Source of the DNA: Comamonas sp. lk
Lineage (GTDB): Bacteria > Pseudomonadota > Gammaproteobacteria > Burkholderiales > Burkholderiaceae_C
Reading direction: 5' to 3'
DNA: 41,245 bases
Assembly: GCA_945869165.1 (NCBI GenBank)
Contig: CAMBNY010000020.1
Span: 1 to 41,245, forward strand
The translations under genes and the position numbers were made by a program. Positions 19,338 to 26,168 of the stretch are shown one piece after another (the stretch's first letter is position 1; each line of letters begins with the position of its first letter). The notes under the pieces were generated by a model. The model was not told where the DNA came from, ran no database searches, and saw nothing but the letters and a program-made list of their open reading frames with translations.

Positions 19338-20381
19338 CTATCCGCGCAGCGTGGCCGGCGGCCCCATAGGCTGGCGCAAATGGCCGATACCGCGAAACTC
19401 CAGGTTTTGGGTGGTGATGGTTTCCCACAAGTGGTCGCCATAGTAAAAGGGCTCAAAGGCCTCTGCGCCCGGTAAGTCCAGTGGCGCGATGACCGCATCG
19501 GCGCGGGGCTCGTAAAAATAGGGAATGGAAAAACGCTCCTGCCCCCAACCCAGCACGCGGTGCACCGTGGCCTGCACCCGGCCGGCCGTCCAGCGTTGCA
19601 GCACCTTGCCAAAATTGACCGCCAAAGTGCCTTCGGTGGGCGCGATATCGAGCCAATGCCCGTCGCGATGGCGGGCCTGCAAACCGCCCACACCGTTTTG
19701 TGCCAACAGGGTTAAAAAACCGGTGTCGGCATGCGGCCTGCCGGTCAGGTAATAGCGCTGGCCCGCATGCTCGGCCCACATCGCTTCGTCACCCAGCGCT
19801 TGCAAGGATTCTGCGCTGCGCACCGGGTAGCGGATAAAGCGCAGCGTAGAAATACCTTGGACAAAAGCAGCATCAAACGAGTGCTCGGGCAAGCCCAGAC
19901 CGCGCGCCACACTTTGCATGATGGCGGCGCTGAGCTGGTGCATGGCCTGGTAGTACTGCGCCGCGGCAACGCGCCACCCCGGCAACGCTTGCTCCAAGGG
20001 TAATGGGCTGGGCTCGCGCAAGGGGTCGCCCTGCGAAAGCGCCAGTTCGGGCCAGACCAAATCCGGGCCGATATCTATGCCCTCTTTGTAAGTGGGAAAG
20101 CCGTTTTGCAAAGGAAACCAACCGCGGTATATATTGGGCTGCGAGGCCTCAAATTTGCGCTGCCACAGGCGCTTTAATGCCGGCTCTGGCAGCGAAAAAA
20201 TACGCAACAAAGTTTGGCGCTGCGCCGCATCCAGATGCGCCCAGGCGGGCAAGTCGTCCAGCAGAAAAAAGCCGGTATCGCGGGCGGCAATGGCGATAGC
20301 TCGGTCCGCAGCGCTTTGACGCTGCAACGCGCCTGACAACAAATCAGCGGCAGAAATTGTGGGAATGGCTTGCGGGGACAT
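19338..20381 (-). CDS. Isopenicillin-N-synthase-like 2-oxoglutarate/Fe(II) dioxygenase
   Basis: 347 residues. The double-stranded beta-helix core carries the facial triad His217-x-Asp219 (GRPHADTGFLTLL) and His274 (VQATVHRVLG), and the cosubstrate pair Arg283-x-Ser285 (ERFSIPYFYEPR). The N-terminal region resembles the DIOX_N domain (IPTISAADLL ... ARDTGFFLLDD). Members hydroxylate or desaturate small molecules, or make ethylene from 2-oxoglutarate, in the cytoplasm. The gene is convergent with the molybdopterin enzyme and has no operon partner, so no substrate can be proposed. It is the last gene before the tRNA-Val module array. Confidence 0.87.
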   Translation of the reverse strand: MSPQAIPTISAADLLSGALQRQSAADRAIAIAARDTGFFLLDDLPAWAHLDAAQRQTLLRIFSLPEPALKRLWQRKFEASQPNIYRGWFPLQNGFPTYKEGIDIGPDLVWPELALSQGDPLREPSPLPLEQALPGWRVAAAQYYQAMHQLSAAIMQSVARGLGLPEHSFDAAFVQGISTLRFIRYPVRSAESLQALGDEAMWAEHAGQRYYLTGRPHADTGFLTLLAQNGVGGLQARHRDGHWLDIAPTEGTLAVNFGKVLQRWTAGRVQATVHRVLGWGQERFSIPYFYEPRADAVIAPLDLPGAEAFEPFYYGDHLWETITTQNLEFRGIGHLRQPMGPPATLRG

Positions 20382-20491
20382 GGCGGGATGCGGGCGGTTT
20401 TGGTAGTGGCCATTGTGATGTATGCCGCCAGACCTTTGGGCGCCACCCTGCTTTCAAAAGCAGTGCACCACGCCACGCAAGCAATAGGCGC

Positions 20492-20523
20492 AAAAAAAGC
20501 ACCGGGAGCCATGTCCGGGTGCT
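20492..20523 (-). terminator. Intrinsic terminator, probably the original tRNA-Val terminator
   Basis: On the minus strand, AGCACC-CGG pairs with CC-GGTGCT around a short loop, followed by seven T residues (20498-20492). It lies 27 bp beyond the CCA end of att1, where a terminator of a minus-strand tRNA gene would stand, and no other minus-strand gene ends here. This suggests that the whole array was inserted between the tRNA gene and its terminator. Confidence 0.75.
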
Positions 20524-20550
20524 TTCATGTTTGCTTTGCCACCAAATAAA

Positions 20551-20595
20551 TGGTGGGCGGTGCAGGTTTCGAACCTGCGACCCCCACAGTGTGAA
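20551..20595 (-). other. att1: 45-bp copy of the tRNA-Val 3' end
   Basis: Reproduces tRNA-Val from the anticodon loop through the T-arm to the encoded CCA, but no 5' half follows. It carries the GGGCGGT/GCAGG allele (plus-strand reading), which differs from the live tRNA (GGGCGAT/GCAAG) at paired T-stem positions, so the stem is intact in both. Taken as the outermost attachment site of the integrated array. Confidence 0.85.
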
Positions 20596-20757
20596 GATTC
20601 CGGCAGTTTGCTAATTTCCTATTTTAAATCAATAGCTTAGCTATTTTAGAATCCATCAAAGTAGTATACAAGTAGTATAGTTAACAGATTAAAAAGTTTG
20701 GTTTATATCATCATTTATAACAAAAAGAAATAAAACCGTAAAGACTCTTTACGCTTG
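20596..20757. repeat. Element end X, copy 1
   Basis: About 160 bp starting directly at att1 and repeated with high identity after att3 (23212-23373). It contains two GTAGTATA boxes (20661 and 20672, 11 bp apart) 66 bp from the core, and ends in the hairpin CGTAAAG-ACT-CTTTACG (20737-20753). Read as the attachment-site arm of an integrative element. Confidence 0.8.
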
Positions 20758-20899
20758 ACTAACTTTGAACTTGCAACCAATCTGTGGCTTCCATGCACTG
20801 GCAAATCAAAGTATATGGAATAGTCGCTTCAATCCAAATTTCGATCACTAGATTTGAAATATTTGACCGAAAAACAATGAAAAAAATCGCGTTTTTCAA

Positions 20900-20919
20900 T
20901 GCTCACACGAGTGTGAGCA
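20900..20919. repeat. Covarying hairpin H1
   Basis: TGCTCACAC-GA-GTGTGAGCA, a perfect 9-bp stem followed by TAATC. Member of a set sharing the outer TGCTCA/TGAGCA with different but complementary inner pairs. Confidence 0.85.
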
Positions 20920-20980
20920 TAATCTTTCCTTCATAGGGAAACAATAGGTAAAAACGTGATATTTTTAATCAAAAAACCGA

Positions 20981-21000
20981 TGCTCATATTAGTATGAGCA
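20981..21000. repeat. Covarying hairpin H2
   Basis: TGCTCATA-TTAG-TATGAGCA, an 8-bp stem followed by TAATC, 81 nt after H1. Confidence 0.85.
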
Positions 21001-21061
21001 TAATCAATTTTTCAGAGGAGAGCAATGAGGAATATCCCGAATATCAGGCCTAAAAACCCGT

Positions 21062-21078
21062 TGCTGCCTCGGGCAGCA
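21062..21078. repeat. Hairpin H3
   Basis: TGCTGCC-TCG-GGCAGCA, a 7-bp stem followed by TATCAG, 81 nt after H2 and identical to H6 at 25271. Confidence 0.8.
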
Positions 21079-21148
21079 TATCAGAAAATATGAAGAATTA
21101 AATCCGGAAAACCACCTAAGTTGTTAATCTATATAAGATTTTTTTACT

Positions 21149-21193
21149 TGGTGGGCGGTGCAGGTTTCGAACCTGCGACCCCCACAGTGTGAA
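21149..21193 (-). other. att2: 45-bp copy of the tRNA-Val 3' end
   Basis: Same length and same allele (GGGCGGT/GCAGG) as att1, flanked on the left by element end Y exactly as the live tRNA is. Two GTAGTATA boxes follow at 21259 and 21270, again 66 bp from the core and 11 bp apart. Confidence 0.85.
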
Positions 21194-21405
21194 AACTCCT
21201 ACATTTCATCTTTTTCCCATTTAGAAACAACAACTTAGCTGTTTTACAGGGGGTCAAAGTAGTATAGTTGTAGTATACTCATATAATTACAAAGTGATAT
21301 TTTAAATTTCACTTTGTGGCGTCAGTTGTAAACCAGTGTCATTTCTTTTTACGGTGCTGCTTTTTTAAGCACGTGTCGAGCGACCATTGTGGCCCAACGA
21401 TGGCT
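21194..21405. other. X-like arm of module 2; no gene seen
   Basis: Weakly similar to element end X (the CTTAGCTGTTTTA and AAAGTAGTATAG segments and the paired boxes at 21259/21270). Past 21280 I see no gene, tRNA or terminator. Confidence 0.55.
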
Positions 21406-21520
21406 CAATGTATATGCAGTTTTCGTGGCGAGCGGCCAATGTATATAAAGTTTCGCGCCGCAAACCGGCAATGTATGTGGAGTTTTGGTTCGCACTGGCC
21501 AATGTACATAGAGTTTTGTT
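21406..21520. repeat. Four degenerate direct repeats of 31-32 bp
   Basis: CAATGTATATGCAGTTTTCG and three variants begin at 21406, 21437, 21469 and 21500. Each has CAATGTA, a central GTTTTG-like block and a GC-rich spacer. The regular phase suggests protein-binding sites, for example sub-terminal transposase sites as in IS21-type elements (inference). Related words occur at 20806, 23451 and 25107. From 21521 to 21791 I see no gene. Confidence 0.6.
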
Positions 21521-21791
21521 AGCAACCATTGAGCACCCTCGTCCACTGAGTTGGGCACCACAAGATGGCGATTGCTTTGTGCGCGCCCGATCCAAAGTCA
21601 ATGTGCGGAATTTGATAACAGTTAAATTGCCGGAACAATTTCACAGCTATGATCAAGTATCATTTTTTTACGCTGCGTGATTTTCAAGCCACCACTTTCA
21701 AGCGAGTCACTGGTAGAGCCATCGCTCGATGTGTATAAATTTTTCTTCTGAAGTGGCCGATGTGCATGATGATTGTGAATTTAACTTCGCC

Positions 21792-22172
21792 CTACCAGCG
21801 AAGCAGCATAGTCTGATCTCGATGCCCAAGAATTTGCGATGCCACGCCAACACCAACGCCGTTCCTCAACAGCGATGCAGCGACCTAATGTCGGATGTCA
21901 TGCACGCCTAAATCTGGACGTCGCAACATGCCCGTCATGCTGCTCCACTTCTTTCGATAGCAAATGGGCGAAATGCCATTGCGACCCGCAAAGATCAATC
22001 GATCCGCAGAACCGGCAGTCAATGCAGGCTTCAAACGTTTGGCCAACGCCATCGTTTCTGGCGTAAAAAACAATGTTCGCGAATCTCCGTTCTTGGTTCT
22101 GGGGACGATGAGTTTCCCGCCTGGGATATCCAGGTCTTGCCATGATCCAGTTGCCGATGGATGGTGAGGTAA
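21792..22172 (-). pseudogene. Tyrosine recombinase (integrase) relic
   Basis: Reading the minus strand in one frame gives DLDIPGGKLIVPRTKNGDSR near the start, then VFF-like LFFTPETMALAKRL, LIFAGRNGIS and VHDIRH, followed by a TAG stop (21885-21887) and, still in frame, VAASLLRNGVGVGVASQILG and HRDQTMLLRW. This is the C-terminal catalytic domain of phage-type integrases: HDIRH holds the HxxR pair and LGH the next histidine. At the position of the nucleophilic tyrosine (nine residues after GH) stands Trp, and the N-terminal two-thirds, including the first catalytic Arg, is missing. The gene is therefore dead. It lies inside module 2, as expected for the original integrase of a tRNA-targeted element. 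Confidence 0.85.
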
Positions 22173-22192
22173 TTATGGGAAAGATGCTAAAT

Positions 22193-22218
22193 TTGCTCTT
22201 GTCGAAGCAAGATATAAT
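22193..22218 (+). promoter_or_regulatory. Possible promoter of the repeat lipoprotein gene
   Basis: A perfect TATAAT lies at 22213-22218. The best upstream hexamer, TTGCTC at 22193, is only 14 bp away, so the -35 box is poor. A 10-codon frame preceded by GAGAG (22255-22287) opens the transcript and could be a leader peptide. Confidence 0.4.
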
Positions 22219-22312
22219 TGCTATTTCTTATCCAATTCTCGTTGAGAGTTGATCATGAGTGAGTTTCAATATTCAAAGTTTGTTTAAACAAAGAAACCAA
22301 GTGCAATTTATT

Positions 22313-22822
22313 ATGAATAACTTTTTCCGATTTGCGATTGCATCATTTTCCATTTTCTTATTGAGTGCTTGCAACAAAAGTGAAAATAGCTTTTCATCAT
22401 TTACACCAGCCTACATTCCTCAAAACTCCATACCATCAACGGACTCCCTTAAACCTGATGAAGCGTTAGTTAGTGTTGGAGATGGGCAATTCTTAAACAC
22501 AAGAAATGGATCAATACTCATGCATATGGGCGGCAATGACTATCTAGATACCAAAAGTGGAACGATGATCATGCACATGGGCGGAGGAGACTATCTCAAC
22601 ACAAAGACTGGCGCAATGATCATGCATATGGGTGGTGGAGATTACCTCAACACTCAAACTGGTTCAATGATCATGAATATGGGCGGTGGTGACCTACTTG
22701 ATACTAAAAGTGGATCAATTCTGATGCATATGGGCGGCGGCGATTACTTAGACACGAAAAGTGGTGCAATTATTATGAATATGGGAGGCGGCGATAAAAT
22801 GGTAATAGGAGGAGATGACTAA
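22313..22822 (+). CDS. Lipoprotein with six 17-residue Met/His/Gly-rich repeats
   Basis: 169 residues from the ATG at 22313, chosen because it opens a lipoprotein signal MNNFFRFAIASFSIFLLSAC with lipobox LSAC and Cys20; an upstream GTG at 22259 would bury it. After a polar linker (21-55), residues 56-160 hold six tandem repeats of the form GGGDYLNTKTGAMIMHM, the first shorter, with Asn/Asp, Thr/Ser and Met/His positions conserved. The regular 17-residue period and alternating pattern suggest a beta-solenoid or beta-roll. The Met-His-Met tips could bind a soft metal such as copper, which is only inference. It ends GGGDKMVIGGDD. AT-rich codon use differs from flanking chromosome. No known family recognised. 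Confidence 0.8.
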   Translation: MNNFFRFAIASFSIFLLSACNKSENSFSSFTPAYIPQNSIPSTDSLKPDEALVSVGDGQFLNTRNGSILMHMGGNDYLDTKSGTMIMHMGGGDYLNTKTGAMIMHMGGGDYLNTQTGSMIMNMGGGDLLDTKSGSILMHMGGGDYLDTKSGAIIMNMGGGDKMVIGGDD

Positions 22823-23116
22823 AACTCTGTACACCCTCAGACGCACGGGACTATGAATACAAATGGGTTTTGCTTACTGATGTCTAAAAGGGGCGCGTGG
22901 GGGTTCTTCCAGCCAGAAATGACAAGGGGTGGGCTGCTTCAGCTGCGAGAGGACTCAACTCTAACAAGTGTTAATGTTGGATGTCGGTATATTGCGGTGG
23001 GGAGTCTCTGCTCTTTTGAATGGAAAGACTTCTTGTGGTTCGATGTTTGAAATACCTAAGCACCATCAAACCGGTTTAAAAACACCGAGTTAGGACATTT
23101 TTAGGACACCCATAAC
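22823..23116. other. No convincing gene
   Basis: A 65-codon frame at 22853-23050 has no ribosome-binding site or recognisable domain. TTAGGACA occurs twice within 20 bp near 23090-23106. Nothing else was seen before the terminator at 23117. Confidence 0.5.
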
Positions 23117-23148
23117 AAAAAAGCACCTGGAGTTTCCTCTAAGTGCTT
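23117..23148 (-). terminator. Intrinsic terminator beside att3
   Basis: On the minus strand, AAGCAC...GTGCTT with inner pairs and a TTTC/GAAA loop is followed by six T residues. It stands 18 bp beyond the CCA end of att3, the same arrangement and similar sequence (GGTGCTTTTTT) as the terminator beyond att1, so a tRNA 3' flank was probably carried in with this att copy. Confidence 0.7.
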
Positions 23149-23166
23149 GATTTAATTGTGAATTTT

Positions 23167-23211
23167 TGGTGGGCGATGCAAGTTTCGAACTTGCGACCCC
23201 TGCAGTGTGAA
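23167..23211 (-). other. att3: 45-bp copy of the tRNA-Val 3' end
   Basis: Identical to the live tRNA over the whole segment from CCA to the anticodon loop (GGGCGAT/GCAAG allele). Two GTAGTATA boxes follow at 23277 and 23288, 66 bp from the core. Left border of the cargo-bearing element. Confidence 0.85.
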
Positions 23212-23373
23212 GATTCCGGCAGTTTGCTAATTTCCTATTTTAAATCAATAGCTTAACCATTTTCGCAACCACCAAAGTAGTATACAAGTAGTATACTTGA
23301 TAGATCCAAAAGTTGGATTTGTATGACCATTTATAACAAAAAGAAATAAAACCGTAAAGACTCTTTACGCTTG
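23212..23373. repeat. Element end X, copy 2
   Basis: Near-identical to 20596-20757 over its first 50 and last 45 bases, including AGATTCCGGCAGTTTGCTAA and the terminal hairpin CGTAAAG-ACT-CTTTACG (23353-23369); the middle has diverged except for the paired boxes. From 23374 to 23608 I see no gene, only a GTGTATGGAGTTTTCGC word at 23456. Confidence 0.8.
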
Positions 23374-23608
23374 AGCGTTTTGAAGCCAGGACAACGCCGT
23401 CACTGCGTTTTGAACTCTCACCTAAGCCACCAACAAGACTCGGCTTGCTCCAAAGTGTATGGAGTTTTCGCTGTAACTTCTGAGGCGTTTATAGATTTGC
23501 CAAATCAGACTGGTCAAACCGAAATCGGTGCGCCTGGTCAAATCAGCGCCAGTGTCGAGACTTTTACGCAAAAGCTAGGACACGCCCCGAACCAGATATA
23601 GGTGAAAA

Positions 23609-24265
23609 TTAGTCAACCAATAAGTGCCCTGTCTTGACAAAGATTGTGCAACCTTCGACGCTAAAAGGTTTGTGTGAGCTCATGTGCGGACTACGCAACC
23701 AAGTTCCCTTGGGGTAGCGTCCATACTCATCCTCAAACACGCCATCAATGACAAATATTTCTTCGCCCCCAAAATGCCTGTGTGGGTTGAAATAAGTACC
23801 CGGCGCCCATCGAACCAAGGCCGTGCTGGTGGTTCCAAATGAGGACAGTGGCAACACTGTCAGACCAGGCACCATTCCAGCAAACCAAGACGATGAGTGA
23901 GTGTTGATGACTACGCGCTCATCATCTAGGGGGTCAAGGTATCTGAGTTTGACAAACAAGGTGCAGCCTGTGTCTGTAAATGGTGTGTGGGATGAGCCGG
24001 GTGGATTCTTGACGTAAGTGCCTGCGGAATATTGACCATGCTCGTCTTGAAACTTGCCCTCTAGTACTAGGAATTCTTCCCCTAGATCGTGCTGGTGGAC
24101 GAAGCTGGATTTGGGCGCATAGCGCACTAGACTGGTAGCGCGAGCAATTTCATCGCCATCGCGCTCAAGCATGACTCTTTCAACACCTTTCTGAGGAGAG
24201 GCTAGCCATGGTAGATCGCCACAATTAACAGCTAATTTTTGAGATAAATCGGTATTGATTTGCAT
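23609..24265 (-). CDS. Double-cupin protein, ChrR-cupin type
   Basis: 218 residues made of two similar ChrR-like cupin domains. The first has HQHDLGEE with His57, His59 and Glu63/64 plus His93; the second has HRHFGGEE with His162, His164 and Glu168 plus His198. Both therefore keep a full metal site of three histidines and a glutamate. There is no zinc-binding anti-sigma domain, so it is not a ChrR regulator itself. Relatives are acetylacetone-dioxygenase-like or of unknown activity. It follows the thioredoxin-like gene by 35 bases on the same strand, probably one transcript. AT-richer than the chromosome and located inside the tRNA-Val array. Confidence 0.8.
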   Translation of the reverse strand: MQINTDLSQKLAVNCGDLPWLASPQKGVERVMLERDGDEIARATSLVRYAPKSSFVHQHDLGEEFLVLEGKFQDEHGQYSAGTYVKNPPGSSHTPFTDTGCTLFVKLRYLDPLDDERVVINTHSSSWFAGMVPGLTVLPLSSFGTTSTALVRWAPGTYFNPHRHFGGEEIFVIDGVFEDEYGRYPKGTWLRSPHMSSHKPFSVEGCTIFVKTGHLLVD

Positions 24266-24300
24266 GCGAAATTTTCAAGTGTTATTGGCGATCGATACCT

Positions 24301-24795
24301 TCAAATCCATCGCGACAAGGCCTGGACATCTTCAGCAAACATCTGTCCCTTTTCATGCTGCACCAATAGACCAGACTTGTCGTAGACCGTGACCACTGGA
24401 ACAGCAGAAGGTTTTTTGAGATCTGACTTTAACTGTGGATCTAGCCATGTTGAAGGAAAGCTGTAGCGATGTTTTTGAAAATGTGCCTTTGCAGCAGATA
24501 AATCTTTGTCAACAGATACGCCCAACACGAACAGACCTTTGCTTTGGTATTTCACAGACAACTTTTCAATCTCGGGGGTTTGTTGCGCGCAGAACGGACA
24601 CCAACTTGCCCAAAAGTAAGTCACCAGAACTTGACCCTTGAGTTGAGATGAATTAAGGGCTTCATCATTAAGCAGTTTGACCTGCGACCACTGGATGACG
24701 GAGCCAATATCAGTGCTATTGTTTTGGGAAAAAACAAGGGAAGGTAAGCAGGCCACCAAAGCGCCAGCTTGGATTAAATTTCTTCTTGGAATCAT
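24301..24795 (-). CDS. TlpA-like periplasmic thioredoxin
   Basis: 164 residues. The N-terminus MIPRRNLIQAGALVACLPSL has twin arginines and a hydrophobic stretch ending near VFSQ, a probable Tat or Sec signal. The redoxin domain has FWASWCPFC with Cys66 and Cys69, then VLGVSVDKD and the cis-proline segment SAVPVVTVYD, as in TlpA/ResA proteins. Such proteins reduce or isomerise disulfides, or handle peroxides, in the periplasm. First gene of a probable two-gene unit with the double-cupin protein. Hairpin H4 lies 41 bases upstream of its start codon, in the promoter region. Cargo of the array's third module. Confidence 0.85.
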   Translation of the reverse strand: MIPRRNLIQAGALVACLPSLVFSQNNSTDIGSVIQWSQVKLLNDEALNSSQLKGQVLVTYFWASWCPFCAQQTPEIEKLSVKYQSKGLFVLGVSVDKDLSAAKAHFQKHRYSFPSTWLDPQLKSDLKKPSAVPVVTVYDKSGLLVQHEKGQMFAEDVQALSRWI

Positions 24796-24835
24796 GATCT
24801 GGGCAGACTACTTTCACCAAATTCAGATAAAAAAT

Positions 24836-24854
24836 TGCTCACGTAGCGTGAGCA
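24836..24854. repeat. Covarying hairpin H4, in the thioredoxin gene's promoter region
   Basis: TGCTCACG-TAG-CGTGAGCA, an 8-bp stem followed by TATG. Same outer bases as H1, H2 and H5 with yet another complementary inner pair set. From 24855 to 25024 I see no gene, only ATCAACC-TTAGT-GGTTGAT at 24985-25003. Confidence 0.8.
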
Positions 24855-25024
24855 TATGCCGTTATGTAAGCTAATTCAATCCGCTTTAACGCGATGTATG
24901 AGGCAGGGAGTTTCAGTATTTGACAGACGAAAAAAATGCTTCAAGAGTAAGCATACTGAAAACTTTTAAAAAGTAAATCCTTAAATCAACCTTAGTGGTT
25001 GATATCTTTCAGTATTTTCAAGGG

Positions 25025-25069
25025 CGGCGTGCGATGAAAGTTTCGAACTCGCGACCCCTGCAGCGTGAA
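25025..25069 (-). other. att4: degenerate copy of the tRNA-Val 3' end
   Basis: Aligns over 45 bp with the live tRNA (GTTTCGAACTCGCGACCCC and CAGCGTGAA) but has lost the CCA and several stem pairs. Unlike att1-3 it has no GTAGTATA boxes. It borders element end Y copy 2 directly. Confidence 0.7.
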
Positions 25070-25189
25070 CTTGCAACCAACCTGTAACCTCCATGCACTG
25101 GCGAATCAAAGTATATGGAGTATTCATTTCAATCCAAATTTCGATCACTGGATTTGAAATATTTGACCGTTATTTTGGACTAGAAAGAA

Positions 25190-25208
25190 TGCTCAGGTAG
25201 CCTGAGCA
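25190..25208. repeat. Covarying hairpin H5
   Basis: TGCTCAGG-TAG-CCTGAGCA, an 8-bp stem followed by TAATC. Confidence 0.85.
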
Positions 25209-25270
25209 TAATCAGTCCTTCATTGGGGCGCAATAGGTAAAAGTACCTGTTTGTAGCCCAATATTTCGAA

Positions 25271-25287
25271 TGCTGCCTCGGGCAGCA
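25271..25287. repeat. Hairpin H6
   Basis: TGCTGCC-TCG-GGCAGCA followed by TATCAG; identical to H3 and 81 nt after H5. Confidence 0.8.
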
Positions 25288-25357
25288 TATCAGAAAATAT
25301 AAAGAATTAAATCCGTAAAACCACCTAAGTTATTAATCTATATAAGATTTTTTTACT

Positions 25358-25432
25358 TGGTGGGCGATGCAAGTTTCGAACTTGCGACCCCTGCAGTGTG
25401 AATGCAGTGCTCTACCCCTGAGCTAATCGCCC
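25358..25432 (-). tRNA. tRNA-Val(CAC)
   Basis: 75 bases on the minus strand fold as a complete cloverleaf: acceptor GGGCGAT/ATCGCCC with discriminator A and encoded CCA, D-arm GCTC...GAGC, anticodon stem CTGCA/TGCAG with loop TTCACAC (anticodon CAC, reading GUG), a five-base variable region, and T-arm GCAAG-TTCGAAA-CTTGC. It lies 25 bases after dnaQ. Its 3' 45 bases are the integration target copied four times downstream, so the present 3' half was probably supplied by an integrated element. It is the only full tRNA in the array. Confidence 0.95.
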
Positions 25433-25456
25433 TGAAACTGGTCAGGCAAGCTAGCA

Positions 25457-25462
25457 ATTATA
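25457..25462 (-). promoter_or_regulatory. -10 box of the tRNA-Val promoter
   Basis: A perfect TATAAT on the minus strand, overlapping the dnaQ stop codon and 24 bases before the tRNA 5' end. No good -35 box is visible, so part of the tRNA may also come from dnaQ read-through. Confidence 0.5.
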
Positions 25463-26168
25463 CGGTTGATTCGGCGCGCACCCAGACGGTCTTGCCCGCG
25501 CTCGCCTTGTCTATTTCGGCCAGCACCTTGGCATGGGCTTGTAATTCTTGCTCGGTCGCTGACAGCACTGGCAAGGCCAAGGTGGCGAAATCGACCCGGC
25601 TGCCTGCAGCTTGCGCGCCGGTCTCGCTGCGGCTGTCCATGAGCAAAGCGTCTTGCCCGCGCGTCATGTTGATGTACACCTCGGCCAGCAATTCGGCGTC
25701 CAGCAATGCGCCGTGCAACTGGCGGCCACTGTTGTCCACCTCCAGCCGCGCGCACAAAGCGTCCAGGCTGTTGCGCTTGCCAGGAAACATTTCCTTGGCC
25801 ATGAGCAAGGTGTCTATCACCCCGCTCACGCAAGTGTGCAGCGGCGGCTTAGCCAGCAAAGACAGCTCGCGGTTTAAAAAACCAATATCAAAGGGCGCGT
25901 TGTGGATGATGAGTTCGGCGCCTTGTATAAAGGCCAATACCTCGTCAGCCACTTGCGCGAACTTGGGCTTGTCCAGCAAAAACTCGTTGCTGATGCCGTG
26001 CACTTTCAGGGCCTCTTCGTGGCTATCGCGCTCGGGGTTGACGTACAGGTGTAGCTTATTGCCAGTGAGCTTGCGGTTGACCAATTCCACGCAGCCGATT
26101 TCAATGACACGGTCACCCTGCTCGGCAAACAGGCCGGTAGTTTCGGTGTCTAAAAATACCTGGCGCAT
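25458..26168 (-). CDS. dnaQ: DNA polymerase III epsilon subunit (3'-5' proofreading exonuclease)
   Basis: 236 residues of the DEDDh exonuclease family. Exo I is FLDTETTGL with Asp7 and Glu9, Exo II is IHNAPFDIGFLNREL, and Exo III carries the His-Asp pair in LHGALLDAELLAEVYI. It proofreads within the polymerase III core next to DnaE. The C-terminal 50 residues are the alpha-binding tail. The gene starts 3 bases after the fdx stop codon, so it may be cotranscribed with the isc operon, and its stop codon overlaps the -10 box of tRNA-Val. Length is normal. Confidence 0.93.
   Translation of the reverse strand: MRQVFLDTETTGLFAEQGDRVIEIGCVELVNRKLTGNKLHLYVNPERDSHEEALKVHGISNEFLLDKPKFAQVADEVLAFIQGAELIIHNAPFDIGFLNRELSLLAKPPLHTCVSGVIDTLLMAKEMFPGKRNSLDALCARLEVDNSGRQLHGALLDAELLAEVYINMTRGQDALLMDSRSETGAQAAGSRVDFATLALPVLSATEQELQAHAKVLAEIDKASAGKTVWVRAESTV

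Follow-up and report, generated by a model that had tools for sequence, protein, structure and literature searches.

Tycheposons are tRNA-bounded elements of aquatic bacteria that combine a tyrosine recombinase with variable cargo. They have been described as large cargo elements of 4–200 kb (PMC10872708). Additive flexible genomic islands (fGIs) are represented by fGI1 of Alteromonas (PMC4119200) and by fGI-2 of Methylopumilus at tRNA-Lys, whose cassettes range from 330 bp to 42 kb and carry tRNA-end repeats (PMC10872708). The ssrA islands of Dehalococcoides lie in tandem in large numbers with the same direct repeat of the RNA gene, 15 of them without an integration module (PMC3146451). Rhizobium phages, whose integration breaks the tRNA gene, bring a whole replacement tRNA-Leu (PMC8631192). 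The Islander table, which requires an integrase in every island, lists only four tandems with at least three members (PMC4383910). Here we describe an array of short modules bounded by 3' halves of tRNA-Val(CAC) at positions 20492–25462 of a 41,245-nucleotide stretch of Comamonas sp. lk (GCA_945869165.1, contig CAMBNY010000020.1; hereafter the window). The array is very probably a stack of elements that integrated serially at the anticodon loop of this tRNA gene and have since mostly decayed. Tandem accretion and decay of tRNA-targeting elements is a known process, not a new integron-like system; less usual are an apparent half-tRNA swap with compensating changes and a branch of elements with a spare tRNA, and a gene-free module and an arm layout conserved across hosts are further features of note.

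The 3' half of tRNA-Val(CAC) is present five times in a single orientation, its 44-mer being found at 20552, 21150, 23168, 25026 and 25359 by a search of the window. Five such copies within 5 kb, including two identical pairs, are not due to chance, judged from their number and identity alone. The intact tRNA-Val(CAC) at 25358..25432 (minus strand), recognized by tRNA search and locus comparison, is the only intact tRNA in the window; it is the target gene, and its 3' half is the attachment core. An Rfam search (E 0.1) of 20400–25600 found no RNA other than this tRNA. The displaced copies, likewise on the minus strand, form the borders between modules: a degenerate one at 25025..25069 (modules 3 and 4; 89% to the reference copy), one at 23167..23211 (modules 2 and 3) that equals the half of the live tRNA over 45 nt, and one at 21149..21193 (modules 1 and 2) with the other allele, which is that of the tRNA of relative G098. 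The outermost copy, at 20551..20595, is identical to the latter and is read as the displaced original tRNA end, its adjoining DNA resembling that of empty sites. Throughout, G000 denotes the window's own genome (84% complete, 81 contigs, the window being contig C20), other G numbers denote relatives, and L numbers denote public contigs or stretches from the arm scan reported below. The displaced fragments keep the orientation of the tRNA, as those of tRNA-targeting islands do. The copies and their two allele classes are as described in the original prediction, made from the sequence of the window, and the cores between modules support its view of tRNA-delimited units. The modules are also AT-rich, as it had claimed, with G+C contents of 32.9, 43.5, 44.7 and 36.8% for modules 1–4 against 60.6 and 58.7% in the flanks.

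Comparison with relatives revealed sites without an array. The conserved neighbour upstream of tRNA-Val (25458..26168, minus strand; locus comparison) is presumably dnaQ-like, a name taken from the original prediction; it was present in 83 of the 103 genomes of the genus. In G068, G098 and G099, the terminator and spacer that the window has beyond its array come immediately behind tRNA-Val, the alignment to the DNA beyond the distal copy covering 66–68 nt with 82–87% identity. The displaced terminator of the window is located at 20491..20524 (minus strand), followed on the distal side by a 2OG-Fe(II) dioxygenase gene (19338..20381, minus strand; family search), and the same dioxygenase gene also follows the empty site of G068. 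Uninterrupted sites of this kind in relatives are typical of tRNA-targeting islands, and these three bear out the earlier suggestion that the array was inserted between the gene and its terminator.

Other relatives carry at this site one module, islands of tens of kilobases, or arrays. The single module of G091 is 95.5% identical to module 1 over 645 nt (cores included), the dnaQ DNA being 87.2% identical; pieces of module 1 in G073 are 93–98% identical (two shorter ones 85–87%), with dnaQ at 84.8%. Beyond its core and arm, module 1 was found only in G000 and G091 and as pieces in G073 among the 103 genomes of the genus, and in none besides G000 among 399 sampled genomes of the family. A partial copy of the tRNA (about 45–54 nt, 3' half) occurs in at least 14 of the 103 genomes, a low count because contigs often break at repeats; two of the 14, G050 and G055, have no dnaQ locus to compare. 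The number of cassettes at the same tRNA is therefore variable in this comparison between species, as in additive islands. Aligned tRNA-Val–dnaQ loci thus yielded the empty sites and variable module numbers that the original prediction had anticipated, and not the same array base for base in all relatives.

The distal ends of the modules consist of the core, a site with the consensus of integration host factor (IHF) and two GTAGTATA repeats 11 bp apart. As IHF consensus we used WATCAANNNNTTR. The distal ends look like the attP arms of a tyrosine integrase, and together with the proximal ends described below they have the layout of a lambda-type attP. Of the four displaced copies, three are followed by the paired GTAGTATA, which starts 63 nt past the end of GTGTGAA. 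Motif matches on the plus strand place the IHF-consensus site of module 1 at 20627..20639 (exact) and its arm-type direct repeat at 20659..20679; the corresponding positions are 21225..21237 (IHF-like, one mismatch) and 21257..21277 in module 2, and 23243..23255 (exact) and 23275..23295 in module 3.

When a public genome collection was scanned for the GTAGTATA pair, 56 matches in 55 stretches were obtained; in several cases one genome contributed more than one match, or the genome had already been included in the search of the genus. A tRNA-Val(CAC) core lies 62–63 bp away in 35 of the 56: in 34 of 38 from Burkholderiales, taken here as all genome-contig records outside 18 hand-listed titles, and in 1 of 18 others. 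A search of genomes for a core followed by the paired repeat had been proposed along with the original prediction. None of the 15 matches in viral contigs has a tRNA-Val core, and an exact pattern from the end of module 1 gave no match in viral contigs. The Burkholderiales matches without a core by this rule are L121, L138, L150 and L163; L163 has a tRNA half with a small deletion, and L138 has kept the arm without a tRNA half. Among 37 distinct arms (a looser rule, by which L138 and L164 are included), the IHF consensus is exact in 18 and within one mismatch in all 37, at one offset in 35; shuffled arms gave on average 0.185 exact sites (largest number, 2) and 3.9 with at most one mismatch. 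L164 (CALQKH020000002.1) is titled as an Akkermansia muciniphila metagenome-assembled genome (MAG) and was counted as 'other'; it contains a Limnohabitans-like element end, with core, near a contig edge, perhaps through a binning error.

On the proximal side, 80 stretches behind tRNA-Val or a split-tRNA crossover were read in the genus, including sites without an element: 71 behind intact tRNAs (3 of 74 were too short), 5 behind split crossovers and 4 behind second tRNAs. The exact IHF consensus is present in 18 of the 80, always at +13 to +15 after CCA, and an inverted GTAGTA repeat in 17, of which 15 have it at +60 to +63. In elements that split the tRNA, and have no tRNA 3' half there, the distance between crossover and inverted repeat is unchanged and a one-mismatch IHF match is in place; the spacing is therefore a property of the element rather than of the tRNA. 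We rejected the idea that the inverted repeat is a plain terminator in view of this position in 15 of 17 cases and of the split elements of G061, G073, G100 and Zwartia, in which no T run directly follows. A hairpin of the inverted repeat with a T run is located at +7 in G063 and at +50 in G079, and G410 has a short T run; some copies may be terminators. In the window, the proximal end of module 2 carries an exact IHF-consensus site at 23140..23152 (minus strand, motif match), which lies at +14 from CCA and overlaps the terminator, and a direct repeat TGTCCTAA with an 11-bp period at 23090..23108 (minus strand), similar to a repeat behind tRNA-Val in G058.

Module 2 also contains a decayed tyrosine integrase (21774..22148, minus strand) with two in-frame stops, 88% identical to residues 171–295 of the 324-aa integrase of G037 and matching PF00589 at 6e-12; the G037 protein has the integrase domain at E 6e-18. 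The array was said to have no live integrase, and we found no intact one in it; PF00589 has six places in G000, and on the window's contig only this remnant. Intact homologues start 90 bp from tRNA-Val (G037, G115) or from a displaced core (G113). At 91 bp from a core, G118 has a homologue in two frames and G061 a broken one, and further remnants are present in G107 and G116. The integrase of G113 stands at one end of a 26-kb element with a GTAGTATA arm at the other end. Close homologues of the G037 integrase were detected in 5 of the 19 arm-bearing or related genomes searched. Phages (84 records) and plasmids (1454 records) gave only matches below 60% identity.

A phage origin found no support: all 15 viral-contig arm matches lack the core, and the phage matches to the G037 integrase stay under that value. 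An integron was rejected for the window, which has no IntI-type integrase; the G037 homologue scores 28.0 bits against an integron-integrase cut-off of 435. Integron cassettes have attC sites as borders; the borders of the array are tRNA-Val 3' halves. Separately, we observed that a tRNA-Val island of Zwartia hollandica LF4-65, a freshwater isolate, harbours an integron integrase (L190:6559-7569, minus strand; NCBIfam PRK15417, 794.5 bits), which adjoins a short tyrosine recombinase.

Larger elements share these ends. Sixteen of the 18 genomes reached through arm matches also matched the tRNA probe. Limnohabitans Bal53 has tRNA-Val followed by two tandem islands of 55 and 59 kb, with both arms at the second only. 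Both arms are also present in a 55-kb element of G112 and a 26-kb element of G116, and the distal arm only in a 26-kb element of Limnohabitans Rim28. In Zwartia hollandica, five displaced cores are spread over 30 kb, and a distal arm accompanies the first two. At the other extreme of size, an element of G078 measures 486 bp from core to core and has the proximal inverted repeat, the distal direct repeat and an exact IHF consensus on both sides, with no open stretch of more than 71 codons.

We examined 84 tRNA-Val loci in 83 genomes, of which 79 were readable; tRNA-Val is intact in 74, none of which has a mispair other than G-U in the acceptor or anticodon stem. The copies at 20551 and 21149 equal the 3' half of G098, and this allele is shared by the two nearest relatives by dnaQ, G061 (5' half) and G098. 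G073 (5' half) and G091 also have the G098-type allele; the other allele is that of the copy at 23167 and of the live tRNA. Upstream of the live tRNA, the spacer resembles that of G061, G098 and G073. Between the live tRNA and that of G098 eight sites differ, three in the 5' half and five in the 3' half; the three 5' changes pair with three of the five 3' changes, and the remaining two lie opposite one another in the T stem (acceptor and anticodon stem pairs were computed, the T-stem pair was identified by eye). The most economical interpretation is that a new 3' half arrived with an element and that the 5' half followed by compensating change. However, the live allele is found whole in the near relatives G071, G087 and G099, and a short recombined tract would therefore give the same result as a swap.

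Another group of elements cuts the tRNA in two. This is the case in 5 of the 79 loci (G061, G073, G074, G100 and G022). In G061, G073, G074, G100, Zwartia (G104), G410 and G119 the 5' half continues as a proximal end that has the inverted repeat 95–96 nt on. A complete, divergent tRNA-Val(CAC) follows at 255–260 nt in five of these seven, namely those with a long enough contig. This spare tRNA is identical in all five (75/75), although the DNA preceding it is only 58–66% identical between subgroups; it is therefore likely to be functional and maintained by selection. Among the matches listed for 399 genomes of the order, one over nearly the whole probe came from G410 alone. Spare-tRNA elements occur in Rhodoferax-like bacteria, in Zwartia (Alcaligenaceae) and in a third lineage, and the 96.5% identity of Zwartia and G061 over the split and spare-tRNA stretch points to recent transfer. 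Neither G061 nor Zwartia has another full-length tRNA-Val detectable with a probe of the usual type, which is blind to divergent ones. A second kind of element splits the tRNA-Val of G022 (L082:9783-10772, plus strand) and carries its own whole tRNA-Val directly beside the integrase, with a displaced core at a distance of about 44 kb.

Single modules of the array measure 0.3–2 kb and the whole array 4.8 kb. Module 1 (20596..21148) is gene-free, its longest open stretch being 55 codons, and has a core on both sides and a distal arm. Like cis-mobilizable elements (CIMEs), it has kept attachment ends and lost the integration genes, although a proximal arm was not recognised. It also contains two palindromes of the form TGCTCA-N8-TGAGCA (20900-20919 and 20981-21000; two found with at most one mismatch, 0.08 expected), the arms of which vary among copies with matching changes; looser palindromes of this type were seen by eye near 24838 and 25189. 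Module 2 (21194..23166) comprises a distal arm, the integrase remnant, a repeat-protein open reading frame and the proximal end with its terminator and TGTCCTAA repeat. The reading frame (22259..22822, plus strand; open reading frame and repeat search), possible cargo, encodes 187 aa over a 51-bp tandem repeat, and its 17-residue units have no Pfam or NCBIfam match. Module 3 (23212..25024) has a distal arm 90% like that of module 1 and two cargo genes on the minus strand, for a ChrR-type cupin protein (23609..24265; PF12973, E 5e-63) and a ResA/TlpA-like thiol-disulfide oxidoreductase (24301..24795; profile search); among the four module proteins scanned, a TraF match of the thioredoxin-like one fell below the cut-off. 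Module 4 (25070..25357) is related to module 1 but lacks its distal arm (the first about 170 bp), and is therefore probably immobile. Modules 1 and 3 have a 208-nt distal end in common (90%, core included), and modules 1 and 4 share a core-containing stretch of 132 nt (94%) and another of 104 nt (90%). The segments had been predicted to hold unrelated cargo or nothing; the cargo does differ and one module is gene-free, but modules 1, 3 and 4 share stretches and module 2 has its integrase remnant.

Cores, empty sites, distal arms of fixed geometry, an intact integrase by the core in relatives and a decayed one here are what the compared sequences contain, and they suggest the following course. 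An incoming circle would carry a tRNA 3' half as its core, and a tyrosine integrase, with IHF, would join it to the chromosome at the anticodon loop. The tRNA would be rebuilt with the element's 3' half, the old half being displaced outward. As each landing pushes the old half outward, the outermost module should be the oldest, with the original terminator beyond it. Later deletions would have stripped the integrase and most of the cargo, and with them mobility, leaving CIME-like modules. After the present 3' half arrived, the host 5' half would have gained three pairing-restoring changes.

Several observations weigh against serial integration and decay as set out here. Neither excision nor a circle has been seen. 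No arm of the kind searched for accompanies the first Bal53 island or three of the five Zwartia cores, close homologues of the G037 integrase are missing from 14 of the 19 arm-bearing or related genomes, and in the integrase comparison the inverted-repeat ends were not linked to any one integrase. In the window the exact proximal IHF match (+14) is confined to module 2; its proximal ends are of more than one type, modules 1 and 4 having neither the inverted repeat at +61 nor the IHF match at +14. The AATCAAGCACTTAG block behind the tRNAs doubles as part of a terminator and may be conserved for that or another reason, and binding by IHF and at the arms is proposed from motifs. Many of the rows compared are close relatives, several from one genome, and hence not independent, and several relatives are broken MAG contigs.

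Other explanations fit parts of these data. Gene-free or gene-poor modules could be active miniature elements that the integrases of larger relatives move in trans, making the site a tRNA-based cassette platform. Module 1, which is flanked by cores, keeps a distal arm and has no open stretch above 55 codons, would suit this role, as would the 486-bp element of G078 with both end types, an exact IHF consensus on each side and nothing open beyond 71 codons; module 1 is far more alike between G000 and G091 than is dnaQ, and the distal arms keep one geometry across hosts. However, module 1 beyond core and arm is restricted to G000, G091 and pieces in G073 among the 103 genomes of the genus and to G000 among the 399 of the family, neither a circle nor a second site of insertion is known, and modules could spread by homologous recombination through tRNA and core as well. 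We consider this explanation unlikely. As a tentative proposal of somewhat different scope, tRNA-Val(CAC) of freshwater Burkholderiales might be a platform for elements of any size, even gene-free ones, with standard attP ends served by the integrases of relatives, half-swaps at repeated landings driving the evolution of the tRNA and one branch escaping this through a whole replacement tRNA.

The sequence common to modules 1, 3 and 4 could stem from local duplication or from unequal homologous recombination between copies of the tRNA, with no site-specific integration involved. This is highly improbable, since the cargo differs, the larger elements of other genera have an equally spaced distal arm, and there are empty sites. 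A tandem tRNA-Val cluster that lost its 5' halves might also leave several 3' halves in a single orientation, a possibility that the original prediction named as a way to be wrong. We give this practically no weight: the tRNA-Val by dnaQ is intact in 74 of 79 readable loci, with no tandem cluster in the stretches read, the copies begin at the anticodon loop, and the same attP-like arm follows at a fixed distance in other genomes, unlike what decayed tandem tRNA genes would show. Empty sites and single intact tRNA-Val genes at the loci of relatives argue against tandem tRNA genes. Serial integration and decay is retained, and the suggestion of a cassette system of a new kind is not, as the parts fit known tandem accretion, integrases being present in larger relatives and a dead copy in module 2.

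The distal arm, with its core, IHF-consensus site and GTAGTATA pair, provides a searchable signature for islands across lake Comamonadaceae and Alcaligenaceae. A natural test of the host's response to the replacement of half a tRNA is provided by the tRNA data, with three matching changes in the window and a carried whole tRNA in the sister elements. Among the titles listed in literature searches none concerned this tRNA-Val family of freshwater Burkholderiales, which does not imply its absence from print.

Among known systems, CIMEs and tandem accretion of integrative and conjugative or mobilizable elements (Pavlovic 2004, as cited in PMC5704250) are alike in that integration genes are lost, ends are kept and elements stack serially at one target. 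The likeness of the window to CIMEs rests on these kept ends and the stacking and not on a conjugative origin; its modules are of 0.3–2 kb, with more than one type of proximal end. With additive flexible islands, as they are described, the array shares a conserved tRNA targeted by a variable number of cassettes; it differs in the tRNA, Val(CAC), in the hosts, and in the common layout of IHF consensus and GTAGTATA arm at fixed spacing. The Dehalococcoides islands depend on a serine recombinase and the transfer-messenger RNA gene (PMC3146451), whereas a tyrosine integrase and tRNA-Val are involved here. Like tycheposons, the elements are tRNA-bounded and associated with a tyrosine recombinase and variable cargo in aquatic bacteria; next to the 4–200 kb given for tycheposons, single modules measure 0.3–2 kb, the array 4.8 kb and the larger relatives 26–59 kb. 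Finally, the split-tRNA elements resemble the Rhizobium phages in that a broken tRNA gene is made good by a complete one (PMC8631192); the Rhizobium elements are prophages, whereas here an identical tRNA-Val is carried in five genomes of at least three genera by elements that may be phages or islands.

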